DNA of 64,000 bases from Granulicella sapmiensis. Its GTDB lineage: Bacteria; Acidobacteriota; Terriglobia; Terriglobales; Acidobacteriaceae. A program made the translations under genes and the position numbers. Below are positions 7,135-51,870 of the stretch, piece by piece (within the stretch, counting starts at the first letter, position 1; each line of letters begins with the position of its first letter). The stretch is taken from the NCBI GenBank assembly GCA_026225395.1, contig JAMFSR010000018.1:1-64000 (forward strand), written 5' to 3'. The notes below the pieces were generated by a model. That model ran no database searches. It saw only the letters and a program-made list of their open reading frames with translations, and was not told the origin of the DNA.

Positions 7135-7167
7135 GCAGATCCCCTGCGGGGATGGCAACAAGAGAGA
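7135..7167. repeat. Solo hairpin repeat with GCAGATCCCC core
   Basis: GCAGATCCCC is followed by a TGCG loop and GGGGATGGCA, giving a small hairpin, then an A-rich flank. The same core outline (GCAGAT-YCC, loop, GGRATG) forms the inverted repeats of the GIY-YIG unit at 23.1-23.5 kb and lies inside lpxK at 51207-51240. Confidence 0.6.
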
Positions 7168-20915: not shown

Positions 20916-22129
20916 GCGCGGGAGATACCAGAAACGACCGGAAGCTGCTGCTGATTCTCGGCGGCGCAATGGTGATACTGGTGATCGGGGTGTGCCTGAT
21001 TGCGCCGGCAGGGGCGAAGGAAGATCCGCGACCGACGACCTATAACGCAGGCGGTGCAGGGGCGAAGGCGGCGTTTCTGACGCTGCAGGGGATGGGCCGC
21101 GATGTGCAGCGGTGGGACCGGCCTACGAATGAGATCGACGGCGTGGATGCGATACGGACGACGCTGGTGCTGGCGGAGCCAATCGCCAATACGCACCAGA
21201 CAAAGGTAATTGCGGGGGAGTTGAAGACGTTTTTGGAGCGGGGTGGGCGGGTGTTGCTGGCCGGTGGTAACGGAGCGCTGTTGCCGGAGGGTGAGACCGG
21301 GGCACCGAGTCTGTTTCAGAAAGGGCTTTGCGAGACGGCGCCGGAAGGGCCTGGTTTGCTGGCTGCGGTGGGGAAGGTGGAACTTTCGGAGAAGGCGCAG
21401 TGGACGGCTGAGGGGCCGCAGTTTCGTGTGGAACAGCGGTGTGGGAAGGATGCGGTGGTTGTGCGGTATCCCATGGGTAAGGGCGAGGCAATTTGGTGGA
21501 GCTCCGCTACGCCGCTGTCGAATGCGGGGTTGAAGACGGATGCGAATTTGAAGCTGTTGCTGGCGAGCTTGTATGGCGATGGCGGCGACGGGCGGACGGT
21601 GCTGCTCGATGAGTATCTGCATGCCGAGCATGGAGAGTACGATCCGACGAAGGGGTTGCCGTTGCGGTGGTTGTGGGTGCAGGTGCTGGTGGCGTTTGTG
21701 CTGCTGGTGTTGAGCTTCAGCAGGCGGAAAGGGCCGCTGCGGTTGCCGGTGGTTCTGCCGCGGAGCTCGCCGCTGGAGTTTGCGGAGTCGATGGGAGACT
21801 TGTATGCGAAGGCGGGAGCTACGGGCGCGGCTACGGCGGCGGCAGAGCGTCGGTTGCTGAGGATGCTGCAGCGTGAGGCGGGAGTGGCGAGGGCGACGAT
21901 TGATCAGGGACCGCAGGCGGTGGGCGAGGCGCTGGAGGCCAGGCTGGGTGGGGATTGGTCGAGGCTGGTGAAGCATTTGAGTGAGGCGGCGGGGGTTGGA
22001 GAGACTGAGCTTGCTCCAAGGAGTGCGCTGGCGCTGGTGCGTGCTTTGGCTGAGGATGAAGCTGAGGTGAAGAAGAAGGTTTTAGGTTCGAGGTTTCAGG
22101 TTTCAGGAGCGGGAGAGCGGATGGCATGA
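20912..22129 (+). CDS. DUF4350 domain membrane protein
   Basis: This 405-residue protein starts with TTG at 20912, overlapping the upstream TGA. It has an N-terminal membrane helix (LLLILGGAMVILVIGVCLIA), a DUF4350 domain (about 45-245) with a GATase-like Rossmann outline (LERGGRVLLAGGNG, VLLDEYLHAEHGEY), a second membrane helix (WVQVLVAFVLLVLSF) and a helical cytoplasmic tail. It is a standard member of the MoxR operon. Its last ~17 residues (KKVLGSRFQVSGAGERMA) are encoded by a low-complexity repeat and are probably not part of the ancestral protein. Its stop overlaps the moxR ATG (ATGA). Confidence 0.85.
   Translation: MSAGDTRNDRKLLLILGGAMVILVIGVCLIAPAGAKEDPRPTTYNAGGAGAKAAFLTLQGMGRDVQRWDRPTNEIDGVDAIRTTLVLAEPIANTHQTKVIAGELKTFLERGGRVLLAGGNGALLPEGETGAPSLFQKGLCETAPEGPGLLAAVGKVELSEKAQWTAEGPQFRVEQRCGKDAVVVRYPMGKGEAIWWSSATPLSNAGLKTDANLKLLLASLYGDGGDGRTVLLDEYLHAEHGEYDPTKGLPLRWLWVQVLVAFVLLVLSFSRRKGPLRLPVVLPRSSPLEFAESMGDLYAKAGATGAATAAAERRLLRMLQREAGVARATIDQGPQAVGEALEARLGGDWSRLVKHLSEAAGVGETELAPRSALALVRALAEDEAEVKKKVLGSRFQVSGAGERMA
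22080..22110. repeat. Low-complexity phrase repeat at the end of the DUF4350 gene
   Basis: The phrase TTCGAGGTTTCAGGTTTCAGG has two GGTTTCA units and a related GGTTCGA unit. It encodes the SRFQVSG tail. This kind of phrase repeat is familiar from intergenic DNA of several soil phyla; here it has extended a coding region. Confidence 0.6.
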
Positions 22130-23088
22130 GTGAGATGGGTGTGGCGGCGGCTAGTGAGTTGTTTGCGCGGGGGCAGGAGCAGATTGGGCGCGTGATTGCC
22201 GGGCAGGAAGAGGCTGTGGCGCAGGCGTTGCTGACGATGCTTTGCGGTGGTCATGCGCTGCTGGAGGGCGTGCCCGGTGTGGCGAAGACGCTGGCGGTGA
22301 AGACGCTGGCGCGGTTTCTGCAGCTGGAGTTTCGGCGGGTGCAGGCTACGCCGGACATGATGCCGGCGGACATCCTGGGAACGAATGTGTTCTCGCAGAA
22401 GACGGGCGAGTTTTCGTTCCATAAAGGGCCAGTGTTTACGCAGTTTCTGCTGGTCGATGAGATCAACCGTATGCCTCCACGGACGCAGGCGGCGCTGCTC
22501 GAAAGCATGGAAGAGCGGCAGGTGACGGCGGATGTGGAGACGATGCGGCTGGATGAGTACTTTACGGTGTTTGCGACGCAGAACCCGGTGGAGTTTGAAG
22601 GGACGTATCCGCTGCCGGAGGCGCAGCTGGACCGCTTTCTGCTGAAGATCAAGGTGGGGTATCCGGATGTGGCCGAGGAACGCGTGGTGCTGGAGCGGCA
22701 TCATGCTTCGCACAGTGCTACGGGGCTGGCGGATACGCCGATTGAGCCGGTGCCGTTTGAGTTGCTGGCGGCGGCGCGGCGGGAGATTCGGAGTGTTCGG
22801 GTTGAGCCGGCGATCTTTGATTACCTGCTGGCGATTGCGCGCAGGACGCGGGATTGGCCTTCGATTTCGCTGGGTGCAAGCCCGAGGGCGGCGGCTAGTT
22901 TGTTGTTGGTCGCGAAAGGCTACGCGGCGCGCGAGGGGCGAGACTTTGTGATTCCCGATGATGTGAAGGAAGCAGCGCTGCCGACGTTGCGGCATCGGTT
23001 GGTGTTGAGGCCGGAGGCTGAGTTGGAGGGGTTTGATGCGGATCGGGTGGTTCGGGATGTGCTGGCGGCGGTGCAGGTGCCGAAGTGA
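22126..23088 (+). CDS. MoxR-family AAA+ ATPase
   Basis: This 320-residue cytoplasmic ATPase has Walker A EGVPGVAKT (about 47-55), Walker B FLLVDEINR (Asp111-Glu112), sensor 1 in FATQNPVEFEGTYPLPEAQLDRF and the C-terminal lid. MoxR proteins act as chaperones that help insert cofactors into or assemble partner complexes, often with DUF58/VWA proteins. The ATG overlaps the DUF4350 stop by 4 nt. In typical clusters moxR is directly followed by the DUF58 gene; here a GIY-YIG unit lies between them, starting 18 nt after the moxR stop. Confidence 0.95.
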   Translation: MSEMGVAAASELFARGQEQIGRVIAGQEEAVAQALLTMLCGGHALLEGVPGVAKTLAVKTLARFLQLEFRRVQATPDMMPADILGTNVFSQKTGEFSFHKGPVFTQFLLVDEINRMPPRTQAALLESMEERQVTADVETMRLDEYFTVFATQNPVEFEGTYPLPEAQLDRFLLKIKVGYPDVAEERVVLERHHASHSATGLADTPIEPVPFELLAAARREIRSVRVEPAIFDYLLAIARRTRDWPSISLGASPRAAASLLLVAKGYAAREGRDFVIPDDVKEAALPTLRHRLVLRPEAELEGFDADRVVRDVLAAVQVPK

Positions 23089-23106
23089 CAAGTGTGCCTC
23101 TCTGCA

Positions 23107-23142
23107 TTTCCATTCCGTAGCGCAGCGAAGGAATCTGCTTTC
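23107..23142 (+). repeat. Left inverted repeat of the GIY-YIG unit
   Basis: This 36-nt arm is the perfect reverse complement of 23497-23532. It begins 18 nt after the moxR stop codon. Confidence 0.9.
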
Positions 23143-23176
23143 TTTGATCGCTAGCAGCCTTTTGAGGACAGCCATC

Positions 23177-23464
23177 ATGTACGAGTACAAGTTCTACGTG
23201 TACATTCTCGCGAGCCGCTCGCGCACGCTTTATGTGGGTTTCACGACAGGCCTTCGCAGGCGCGTGATGCAGCATCGGGAAAAAGTGCCGGGTTCCTTTA
23301 CCGCTCGCTACAACATTGATCGGCTGGTTTATTTCGAGACCTTTCAGTACGTGAATAACGCGATTGCTCGTGAGAATGAGCTGAAGGATTGGAACCGAGC
23401 TAAGAAAATAGCGCTCGTCGAATCGAAGAATCCGACGTGGGAGGATTTAGCGGCTGACTGGTAA
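23177..23464 (+). CDS. Small GIY-YIG nuclease-family protein
   Basis: This 95-residue protein is a single GIY-YIG domain, the catalytic fold of UvrC and many homing endonucleases. The first signature is YVYIL (residues 7-11) and the second is LYVGFT (18-23). The conserved Arg follows in GLRRRVMQH, and the catalytic Glu is probably in ARENELKDW. Length fits the stand-alone COG2827/YhbQ-like group. The start at 23177 has GAGGA at good distance. The gene is alone between 36-bp inverted repeats inside the MoxR operon, which points to a role in moving or cutting those repeats rather than in the MoxR system. No DNA-binding domain is attached. Confidence 0.9.
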   Translation: MYEYKFYVYILASRSRTLYVGFTTGLRRRVMQHREKVPGSFTARYNIDRLVYFETFQYVNNAIARENELKDWNRAKKIALVESKNPTWEDLAADW

Positions 23465-23496
23465 GACTTCCATGAGGCGCCTGTGGTGGCAGTAAC

Positions 23497-23532
23497 GAAA
23501 GCAGATTCCTTCGCTGCGCTACGGAATGGAAA
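23497..23532 (-). repeat. Right inverted repeat of the GIY-YIG unit
   Basis: This 36-nt arm is the perfect reverse complement of 23107-23142. Its last bases include an ATG (23526) that opens the DUF58 reading frame. Confidence 0.9.
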
Positions 23533-25028
23533 AACAAAAAGGCCGGATCATTACGACAATGCAGACATTGATTCCACAACCCGCGAGTGGCAGGGCTCAG
23601 CCGATTGGTCGGACTGGGCGGGTGTTGGGGTTTGGGTTTACGCCTTTGGCGATGATTTTGTTCGCGTGTGGGTTGGTGCTGGCGGCGCCGGCGTTCTGGC
23701 ATCCACGGCGAATATGGTGGATGTTTGCCTGGGATGGCGTGGTGGTGGTGCTGGCATTGTTCGATGCGGTGAGGCTTCCCCGCCCTGCTGATTTTCTGGT
23801 GACGCGGAGTTTTCTGGATTCGCCGCAGCTGGGGCAGCCTACGCGGGTGGAGTTGCGGGTTGTGATGCAGGCGGATGTGGTCGCGGATCTGCGACTGACC
23901 GATGATCTGGATACGGCGCTGGTGGCAAAGCCCGTGGAGCAGCAGGTGCAGGTGTTTCCGCGGGATGCGGCGGTGAGCGTGGCGAGGGTGTATCCGCGCG
24001 AGCGTGGGGATTTTGTGATGCGGCGGGTGTATCTGCGGTATCGCGGGGTGTTGCGGTTGGTGGAGCGGTGGGCGGCGGCGGAGCCGGTGGAGTCGACCGG
24101 CGAGGCACAGCGGGTGAGGGTGTTTCCGGCGCTGGAGGAGAGTCGCGAGAGTACGAAGTTTTACCTGCTGCGGGCGCGGCAGATCGAGATGCAGAAGCGG
24201 AGGCTGCGACTGCGAGGGGTGGGGCGGGACTTTGAGAGTCTGCGGGATTATCAGCAGGGTGATGAGCTGAGGAATGTTTCATGGACGGCGACAGCGCGGC
24301 GGAACAAGCTTGTTAGCCGGCAGTTTACGGTGGAGCGGTCGCAACAGGTTTGGATTGTGCTCGATGCGGGGAGGCTCTCGCGGACGGCGTTTGAGTTGAA
24401 GCGAGGTGGGGTTGAGAGCTTTTCGGAGACGGAGGCGGAGAAGACGGCAGCGCATCTGTTGACGGTTACGCAGCTAGACCAGGCGACGCAGGCGGCGGCG
24501 ATGCTGGCGCAGGTGATCAATGGGTCGGGCGATAAGTTCGCCATGATGGCCTATGGGCAGAAGGTGCAGCAGCTGCTTCCGCCGGGCGCGGGGCAGACGC
24601 ATCTGCGGGTGCTGATCGACCACTTGAGCCGGACGAGGAGTGAGCGAGCGGAGGGCGACCACCTCGGAGCGATGGCTCGGCTAAAGACCGTGCAGCGTCG
24701 GCGCGGGTTGATCGTCTGGGTGACGGAGTTGACCGACAGCGTGGGCAGGCCGGAGATTGTGGCTGCGGCTGCGGAGCTGGTGCGGCGGCATTTGGTGGTG
24801 CTAGTGCTGTTGAAGCATCCGGAGCTGGATGAGCTGGCGGCAAGGACGCCGAAGACACGGGCGGAGATGTTCCATGCCGCGGCGGCGCAGGAGATGATCG
24901 AACGGCGGAGAGAGACGGTGGTGCAGCTGGAGCGGCAAGGGGTGTTGATCGTGGAGACGACCGCGGCGGAGGTTGGGGTGAATGCGATTACGAAGTATCT
25001 GGAAGTGAAGGCTAAGGGGCTGCTTTAG
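23526..25028 (+). CDS. DUF58 domain-containing protein
   Basis: This 500-residue protein has an N-terminal pair of membrane helices (about 35-80) and a DUF58 domain (about 230-330) with the signature GDELRNVSWTATARRNKL followed by SRQFTVERSQQVWIVLDAG, which leads into a VWA-like fold (to about 470). DUF58 proteins work with MoxR ATPases. The first ATG at 23526 lies in the right inverted repeat of the GIY-YIG unit; another ATG is at 23559 (MQTLIPQP). Neither has a strong ribosome site, so the natural start may have been displaced by the insertion. The gene ends 41 nt before the convergent SpoIIM gene. Confidence 0.85.
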   Translation: MEKQKGRIITTMQTLIPQPASGRAQPIGRTGRVLGFGFTPLAMILFACGLVLAAPAFWHPRRIWWMFAWDGVVVVLALFDAVRLPRPADFLVTRSFLDSPQLGQPTRVELRVVMQADVVADLRLTDDLDTALVAKPVEQQVQVFPRDAAVSVARVYPRERGDFVMRRVYLRYRGVLRLVERWAAAEPVESTGEAQRVRVFPALEESRESTKFYLLRARQIEMQKRRLRLRGVGRDFESLRDYQQGDELRNVSWTATARRNKLVSRQFTVERSQQVWIVLDAGRLSRTAFELKRGGVESFSETEAEKTAAHLLTVTQLDQATQAAAMLAQVINGSGDKFAMMAYGQKVQQLLPPGAGQTHLRVLIDHLSRTRSERAEGDHLGAMARLKTVQRRRGLIVWVTELTDSVGRPEIVAAAAELVRRHLVVLVLLKHPELDELAARTPKTRAEMFHAAAAQEMIERRRETVVQLERQGVLIVETTAAEVGVNAITKYLEVKAKGLL

Positions 25029-50812: not shown

Positions 50813-51870
50813 GCGCGCGTCGGTCGTGGGCGTGGCCGCTGGTGCCGTTGTATGCGGCGGTGCTGCGTGCGAAGGATGCGTTGCGCGGTGAGGCGAAGAC
50901 GCTTGCGTGGCCGGTGGTGAGTGTGGGGTCGGTGTCGGCGGGGGGAGCGGGTAAGACGCCGGTGGTGATCGCGCTGGCAAAGGTGCTGCGTGAGCGTGGA
51001 TGGCGGGTGGATGTGCTTTCGCGAGGATATGGGCGCGAAGGGTTGGGGATTGCGCGGGTAGATACGGTGCGCGAGGATGCGGCGCGGGTGTTTGGGGATG
51101 AGCCAGTGTTGATCGCGCGAGCGGCGGAAGTTCCGGTTTGGGTGGGGTCAGATCGGTATGCGGTGGGAGTTGCTGCGGAGAGGGCGGTTGCAGATGCTGA
51201 CGAGAAGCAGATCCCCTTCGAGGATGACAGAAAGAAAAGCACGAACGGTGACGCCGGCGAAAGGCGCGGGGTGCATGTGCTGGATGATGGGTTTCAGCAT
51301 CGGCGGCTGAAGCGGGATGTCGATATCGTGCTGATCACGGCAGAAGATCTGGATGATGCGTTGCTGCCGGCGGGCAATCGGCGGGAACCGCTGGAGGAGC
51401 TGGGACGGGCGGATGTGGTGGTGATTCGCGAAGAAGAGCGCGGGGCGGTTGAGGCGCGGGTGAGCAAACTGATGCGTACCGGTGCGCTGCTGTGGAGCGT
51501 ACACCGGAGGCTGCGGTTCCCTGCTCCACTGGGCGTGCTGAGCGCGGGACTGCGGCCGCTGGCCTTCTGTGCGATCGCGCGGCCCGAAGGGTTTGCGAGT
51601 GCATTGCAGGACGCTGGGTGCGGGATTATCGATGCAGTGGTGTTTGATGATCATGCGCCATATACGGAGCGCGAAGTGGAAGACCTGCTCGCTATCGCGA
51701 AGAAACTAAACGCCTCGGGGTTTGTGACGACTGAGAAAGATGCGGTGAAGCTGTCGGCGGAGTTGTGGGCGCAGCTGGAGGTTGTGGGGCCGGTTGTGGT
51801 GGTCGCGCTGGATGCGGAGTTTGTTTATCCGGAGCGCGTGGCTCGTGAGCTGGAAGCGAGGCTTGCGTGA
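50809..51870 (+). CDS. lpxK: Tetraacyldisaccharide 4'-kinase
   Basis: This 353-residue inner-membrane-associated kinase phosphorylates the lipid A precursor. The P-loop is VGSVSAGGAGKTP (about 39-51); LSRGYGR, GDEPVLIA and HVLDDGFQHRRL follow, and TTEKDAVKL is near the end. It starts at GTG, overlapping the waaA stop by 4 nt, with GGAGG 7 nt upstream. About 23 residues (129-151; ADEKQIPFEDDRKKSTNGD) between the GVAAERAV helix and HVLDDGFQ have no counterpart in normal LpxK and are encoded by a GCAGATCCCC-type repeat. The insert falls on a loop before the DDGFQH motif, so activity may be kept. Confidence 0.93.
   Translation: MSARRSWAWPLVPLYAAVLRAKDALRGEAKTLAWPVVSVGSVSAGGAGKTPVVIALAKVLRERGWRVDVLSRGYGREGLGIARVDTVREDAARVFGDEPVLIARAAEVPVWVGSDRYAVGVAAERAVADADEKQIPFEDDRKKSTNGDAGERRGVHVLDDGFQHRRLKRDVDIVLITAEDLDDALLPAGNRREPLEELGRADVVVIREEERGAVEARVSKLMRTGALLWSVHRRLRFPAPLGVLSAGLRPLAFCAIARPEGFASALQDAGCGIIDAVVFDDHAPYTEREVEDLLAIAKKLNASGFVTTEKDAVKLSAELWAQLEVVGPVVVVALDAEFVYPERVARELEARLA
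51207..51240. repeat. Hairpin repeat with GCAGATCCCC core inside lpxK
   Basis: GCAGATCCCC, a TTCG loop and AGGATGACAG, followed by an A-rich flank, match the intergenic copy at 7135-7167 and the arms of the GIY-YIG unit. It is in frame and is translated as part of the extra LpxK segment. Confidence 0.6.

Follow-up and report, generated by a model that had tools for sequence, protein, structure and literature searches.

The closest described systems are the REP/RAYT systems and REPINs (REPtrons), in which, according to the excerpts of PMC3733652 available to us, an enzyme gene lies between inverted, dispersed palindromes, gene-free dimers occur and presence is patchy, all as in the case presented here. 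RAYTs are HUH tyrosine transposases that go with GTAG repeats, whereas the gene considered here encodes an unrelated GIY-YIG protein with no HUH domain detected by Pfam. RAYTs have resided in genomes for a long time. Another group of palindromes, the CGTC-tagged REPs, has a CGTC, TGTC or CCTC tag, an AT-starting stem of 8-9 bp, a loop of 4-5 and a tail that is often CCA, and forms head-to-head dimers (PMC3733652, available excerpts). The class includes the Neisseria repeat dRS3 (= CGTC-1) and the Rickettsia elements RPE-4 and RPE-6; in the same excerpts Di Nocera 2013 describes it as apparently without a dedicated transposase and reports no case of CGTC repeats flanking a tyrosine transposase gene (PMC3733652). 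Insertion sequences and mini transposons share with our unit the terminal inverted repeats around an enzyme gene. The free-standing GIY-YIG homing endonucleases of phages are likewise lone GIY-YIG genes, which possibly drive their own copying by cutting DNA, and we know of no homing endonuclease that combines inverted arms and gene-free dimers with a dispersed repeat family to match. The unit described here is probably a member of a widespread two-part system that consists of CGTC-tagged palindromes and a dedicated small GIY-YIG nuclease encoded between inverted copies of them.

The unit lies in the window, the 64,000-nucleotide stretch of Granulicella sapmiensis DNA that was analysed (contig 38, genome of 4.98 Mb). 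An ORF of 95 codons plus stop (23177-23464, + strand) encodes a protein of the core GIY-YIG subfamily with the C-terminal NP.W.DL motif, and its sole Pfam match is GIY-YIG (PF01541, E 5.9e-13). The left arm is the 36-nt palindromic repeat TTTCCATTCCGTAGCGCAGCGAAGGAATCTGCTTTC (23107-23142, +), with the core ATTCC...GGAAT and a CTGC tail facing the gene, and sequence comparison identified the right arm (23497-23532, -) as the same repeat inverted. The two are exact reverse complements, as the original prediction had it for this 95-codon gene. They sit inside a longer 50-nt pair (23096-23145 and 23494-23543) with 90 % complementarity, whose ends delimit the probable whole unit of 448 bp (23096-23543, +), although no clean empty site fixes these outer limits. 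The gapped arm score of the window is 37.5 against a maximum of 34 among 504 control windows from core loci, and a chance origin of its inverted arms is excluded. Between the arms Pfam found GIY-YIG only and no transposase, NCBIfam had no matches for the protein, and Rfam had none across 22900-23800 at E up to 1. The 5′ neighbour of the unit is moxR (22126-23088, +) and the 3′ neighbour is a DUF58 gene (23559-25028, +). The right arm had been thought to overlap the start of DUF58, which proved wrong: the relatives keep a start like ATGCAGACNCTGAT, corresponding to 23559, and the ATG at 23526 represents another possible start further upstream.

The layout of the left arm matches TTGTCATTCCGCAGCGTAGCGAAGGAATCTGCTTGT of a genus relative (L060), with the position of the GTC tag being TTC-like in the window. 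This holds for both arms, so the window copy lacks the unpaired (C/T)GTC tag, and its stem, ATTCC/GGAAT, is 5 bp with an imperfect inner part, compared with the 8-9 bp stem of a CGTC-tagged REP. The window copy is a divergent member of the family. The identical change of the tag on both arms points to copying between the arms or to movement as one unit. Within the genome, the exact 25-nt arm core occurs at this locus only and three further copies differ at 2-3 of the 25 bases, while a query of 75 bases from the left-arm region found seven other places at E < 0.01. Tagged palindromes as a pattern gave 61 matches compared to one for the reversed pattern. Two solo palindromes of the same family, both predicted originally, are present in the window on the - strand, GCAGATCCCCTGCGGGGATGGCA from 7135 (7135-7157, tag GCC) and GCAGATCCCCTTCGAGGATGACA from 51207 (51207-51229, canonical GTC tag). 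The genome also has two other copies of the core nuclease, which are without arms at the score cut of 17 defined below.

With the cut-off used, moxR was detected in 19 genomes out of 41, the window's among them; the other 18 comprise 14 from the genus and four more distant. DUF58 follows moxR in all 18 of these readable loci. The estimated gap between the two genes is 470 bp in the window, 2-177 bp in 13 of the 14 genus relatives and at most 71 bp in the four distant ones. The remaining genus relative (G017, locus L255) has other sequence of 1.18 kb at the same junction (estimated gap 1181 bp). A profile search of the 19 loci found the GIY-YIG gene at the window's locus alone; the gap in the relative G002 holds one tagged palindrome and that of the close relative G023 none. 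The unit does split two normally adjoining genes, as had been proposed. The original prediction had named as its refutation a gene fixed at this place in relatives together with an arm occurring nowhere else; none of the 18 keeps the gene and related palindromes occur elsewhere, and we reject the explanation of a conserved local gene. The window protein has matches, one to five each, in 15 of the 25 genus genomes searched and no match in the other 10, some of which are incomplete.

Matched inverted palindromes surround core GIY-YIG genes in Acidobacteriota, Pseudomonadota, Bacteroidota and others. An exploratory comparison revealed inverted arms with a score of at least 16 within 600 bp in 11 of 14 relatives from several phyla. 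The wider sample of loci came from three sources: Acidobacteriota, where 96 of 396 genomes had a match; the 12 genomes that had supplied the first relatives; and the phylum of a Burkholderiales relative, where 99 of 398 genomes had a match. The Burkholderiales centre of this last search means that it covers Pseudomonadota. The Pseudomonadota sample comprised 69 of the places listed (29 new and 40), taken roughly by rank, and the low-scoring Acidobacteriota sample 40 rows; near-identical places were merged before counting. Our phylum-wide wording refers to these sampled loci. As arm score we used a gapped inverted-repeat score that compares the 220 bases before the gene with the 220 after it, with a cut of 17. 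This cut was reached by 80 of 126 core loci and by one of 504 windows drawn at random from those loci, and in Pseudomonadota by 45 of 68 loci and one of 272 control windows. The pooled set contains 209 domains of at least 80 bits, 206 of them with 200-bp flanks, named plasmid loci included; 134 of these 206 reached the cut, compared to 3 of the 264 ORFs of 70-180 codons in their neighbourhood. These pooled loci are not independent, with several per genome, some orthologous and one (L115) counted twice. The other 72 had no arms at this cut. Arms were found in 3 of 46 loci of a distant GIY-YIG clade with less than 60 bits on the core profile (control 0 of 184) and in 3 of 10 loci of a middle group with 60-90 bits. 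A hairpin-plus-tag detector was too loose: it recognized both sides of 111 of the 206 core loci, but did the same for 88 of 836 control windows and flagged a single side of about 30 % of the controls, which is why we rely on the inverted-repeat score.

The random windows and the neighbouring ORFs reject a chance inverted repeat. Tagged palindromes are abundant, with up to 137 pattern matches per genome in the genus, and some gene may fall between two of them by mere capture; however, the counts for neighbouring ORFs, random windows and the related distant clade leave this explanation next to no credibility. Phage origin was rejected as well: the phage matches were only distant GIY-YIG genes (34-35 % identity) in ten Rhizobium phage records, and the one examined has no flanking arms. 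In that record (Rhizobium phage RHph_Y65, L400) the GIY-YIG gene, at 35 % identity, lies a few genes from an HNH endonuclease and is not flanked by palindromes. On plasmid p1 of Planktothrix agardhii No.66 (L393) a GIY gene has a type IIL restriction enzyme, annotated as MmeI, on one side and the DISARM gene drmA on the other.

Regarding the enzyme, the residues Y9, Y19, G21, R29, H33, E66 and N85 are conserved in the window protein and the core family. In the core set, Y9 is kept in 207 of 207 domains, Y19 in 208 of 208, R29 and E66 in 208 of 209 each and N85 in 206 of 208. We take the tyrosines, the arginine and the glutamate (and the asparagine) to have the catalytic roles that they have in UvrC and other GIY-YIG enzymes; judged by these residues, the protein is predicted to be an active GIY-YIG nuclease. 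The core is set apart from the low-scoring group by Y45 and the C-terminal N85/W88/D90 motif. The only solved relatives at E 0.01 are the UPF0213 proteins 1zg2 and 1ywl, whose 44.5 and 31.2 bits lie in the low range. These small GIY-YIG proteins share the domain and the size with the core nuclease, but relatives with similarly low scores mostly lack flanking palindromes (the 3 of 46 above) and, where the alignment reaches, also N85/W88/D90. An in-frame stop is present in 11 of the 209 core domains. The dN/dS ratio was 0.03-0.19 in 14 of 16 orthologous pairs, some of which share a member, undefined in one and 0.37 in a pair that includes a stop-bearing copy. Because of the low ratios and the stops, we consider the core enzyme to be under purifying selection with some copies decaying.

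The palindromes around these genes have much in common with the CGTC-tagged REPs of PMC3733652, as far as the available excerpts describe them: the outward (C/T)GTC tag, the AT-starting stem, the short tail, the head-to-head dimers, found here in the genus relatives G002 and G023, and the many copies. The tag motif of the left arm was present in 128 of 143 loci with a score of at least 15, strictly as GTCA(T/C) in 115. Outward GTCAT occurred within 150 bp upstream in 84 and downstream in 77 of 123 loci, and inward GTCAT in 31 and 34 of the 123; with 50 and 42 of 369 control windows, the inward motif is also above control. Upstream hairpins had T or C directly before GTC in 141 of 154 cases, and the (C/T)GTC tag of CGTC-tagged REPs is thus a family-wide feature. 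Several arms from Pseudomonadota and Flavobacteria have exactly the CGTC stem and loop, e.g. TGTC ATTCCCGC GCAG GCGGGAAT CCA, while the Acidobacteriota arms differ by longer and more varied loops and often by CTGC tails, the tag in the window being divergent. Core GIY genes between such repeats were found in Azospirillum lipoferum (flank CGTCATCCCCGCGAAGGCGGGGATCCA) and Sinorhizobium meliloti, two of the five multi-replicon carrier species of CGTC repeats named in the excerpts of PMC3733652, and in a record of Neisseria gonorrhoeae (Neisseria flank GTCATTCCCGCGCAGGCGGGAATCC). A difference is that the same excerpts report no associated enzyme gene, whereas here the GIY-YIG gene is constant between the arms.

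The arms are also specific to the nuclease they surround. Arms matched within one element in 134 of 206 cases and between elements in 45 of 1231. When the stem type was mapped on the nuclease tree, 41 changes were needed, compared to a mean of 58.4 and a lowest value of 53 in 300 shufflings, so the stem type follows the tree. This analysis used 101 labels, after dropping 15 orthologous copies, loci with a score below 15 or an unreadable tag, and tag types that occurred less than three times; an earlier labelling rule, run without a null distribution, had given 44 changes. Gene-free dimers of about 160-190 bp in G002 and G023 have about 50 bp at each end in common with the arms of one G002 nuclease gene (L058). 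The mean scores of the ends of 19 such dimers were 41.5 for L058, 43.0 for L059 of G010 and 40.2 for L074 of G001, and for other nucleases 23.3 and 6.2 (two of G002), 8.8 (L078 of G010) and 8.9 (L079 of G023). One dimer-region query had, among the matches listed, at least 65 in G023, at least 24 in G010 and at least three each in G016 and G001, with flanks included and palindromic copies counted twice. G001 has the dimer-matching nuclease subtype (L074) yet few dimers, with three matches among those listed. By flank comparison, three of ten G002 dimers have an orthologue among nine G023 dimers, a count that is too low because the orthologous G023 region of L310 has a form missed by the pattern.

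The number of genes correlated with the number of tagged palindromes over 41 genomes (Spearman 0.78, kinship ignored, with G031, which has one weak match of 33 % identity, set to zero). Within the genus the correlation per Mb was 0.63, kinship again ignored, with a median of 6.9 palindromes per Mb in genomes with the gene and 2.8 in those without it. An exception is G014, an 89 % complete genome with 45 tagged palindromes, in which no gene was found.

Four sites could be compared between relatives. At site 1, a GIY unit stands next to a palindrome in G002, where G023 has a single palindrome; the flanks are 97 % and 92 % identical, and the two matching pieces of the two genomes overlap by 40 bp. 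The gap could be read in five more relatives: G019 shows one tagged palindrome, and G010, G000, G001 and G018 show none. At site 2 the GIY unit is in G023 (L079), and G002 has a gene-free dimer with the same ends (L281), the two arm loops being in swapped order between the two as after an inversion. Reading by eye revealed no such palindrome in the gaps of G016, G000 and G001; site 2 depends on this reading because the automated gap check, which required an exact stem of 5 bp, misses the long-loop type, including the G002 dimer at this very site. Site 3 is on plasmid AZO_p3 of Azospirillum lipoferum 4B (L390), where sufB and sufC are separated by a GIY unit that has a full dimer at either side. 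The gene is absent in A. ramasamyi (matched flanks 97.9 % identical), A. oryzae, Azospirillum sp. B510 and A. thermophilum, and three of the gene-free Azospirillum sites are without a tagged palindrome. Site 4 is found on Sphingobium plasmids; in seven records the gene is bordered by fnrL on one side and a response regulator on the other. At the same place TomTYG64 (L416) and, less perfectly, TomTYG74 (L421) show a hairpin tagged at both ends (CGTC...GACG) and made of the outer halves of the arms, which from its sequence reads as the scar of an arm-to-arm deletion; no tagged palindrome is present in TomTYG72. The sites differ between relatives by the whole unit, the gene or the orientation, and the direction of change could be either.

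The unit had also been proposed to be a mini mobile element. The inverted repeats around an enzyme gene agree with this, but the data do not demonstrate an ordinary cut-and-paste transposon: orthologous copies evolve under purifying selection, the enzyme is of a hydrolytic type, and the gene-free sites found have gap sequences that differ too much for a target-site duplication to be read.

A free-standing homing endonuclease would cut existing palindromes and have its gene copied in by break repair, the palindromes spreading by other means. Such GIY-YIG homing enzymes are known, and the single palindrome of G023 at site 1, exactly where G002 has its unit and with the two pieces overlapping, fits an intact target site. 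However, unlike in the phage systems, several gene-free sites are without a tagged palindrome (four relatives at site 1, three at site 2 and the three in Azospirillum), though these could be older states. The gene-free dimers moreover have long specific ends of one nuclease subtype, as if dimers and gene-bearing units were both products of one process, and the two arms of an element resemble each other more than they resemble other copies. Homing into palindromes that spread independently is, on this evidence, unlikely.

Another explanation is a resident host gene, with the palindromes serving as terminators or insulators or with the nuclease policing hairpins, and the repeats spread by RAYTs, replication errors or the like. 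The strong purifying selection at fixed sites speaks for it; indeed, fixed orthologous copies under such selection fit a resident gene as well as a mover, and a policing enzyme could also covary with the number of repeats. But a resident gene does not go well with presence and absence at orthologous sites or with the 10 genus genomes without a match, and terminators leave the matched, subtype-specific inverted arms in several phyla unexplained. Spread by RAYTs is opposed by the lack of tyrosine transposase genes flanked by CGTC repeats (PMC3733652, available excerpts). We hold a resident gene to be highly improbable.

This leaves as the preferred reading a dedicated nuclease that acts on its own palindromes. 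The original prediction had drawn the analogy with REP sequences and RAYTs, and this analogy, with the idea that the nuclease acts on these palindromes, is well supported by the pairing of gene and matched, outward-tagged arms under controls, by the covariation of arms and nuclease, by gene-free dimers that share a nuclease subtype and by the differences at orthologous sites; the proposed cleavage of the palindromes, like the mode of spread, is what we infer from these. The form in which the nuclease would recognise its own palindrome is probably an extruded hairpin or cruciform, which it would nick or cut near the boundary of tag and stem. A single-strand fold of 23090-23550 pairs both arms (z -6.2), while a lone arm folds no better than shuffles (z 0.49); the arm-arm pairing is compatible with a hairpin or cruciform mechanism. 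GIY-YIG enzymes cut DNA by hydrolysis and have no strand-joining activity, which is why we suggest that new sites receive copies of the dimer, either including or lacking the gene, through host repair or replication. The GIY-YIG nuclease would in this way play for CGTC repeats the part that has been proposed for RAYTs with GTAG REPs. RAYTs are regarded as partly domesticated, and because of the purifying selection the same may apply to the present enzyme. We give roughly even chances to the wider claim that CGTC palindromes in many phyla, including dRS3 and some of the Rickettsia elements, form a class of mobile repeats of their own, copied as gene-bearing and gene-free dimers by a nuclease of about 95 residues that cuts its own palindrome and by host repair, with no transposase, recombinase or reverse transcriptase.

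The matches listed in a search of open-licence PMC papers, preprints excluded, contained no link between GIY-YIG and REP, CGTC, dRS3 or RPE repeats, and such an absence is not proof. A REP-type repeat with a dedicated enzyme is known; what is likely new, as far as we have seen, is this enzyme and its likely chemistry. CGTC-tagged palindromes are widespread small repeats, and the paper that defined them, in its available excerpts, left the agent of their spread open (PMC3733652). The GIY-YIG subfamily is likely their missing partner, which provides a named enzyme, a substrate and simple assays. If this is true, REP-like repeat systems evolved on two occasions around unrelated enzymes, and many genes annotated only as "GIY-YIG nuclease family protein" would receive a function. 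It would also account for the location of such genes between moxR and DUF58 in the window and between sufB and sufC in Azospirillum lipoferum.
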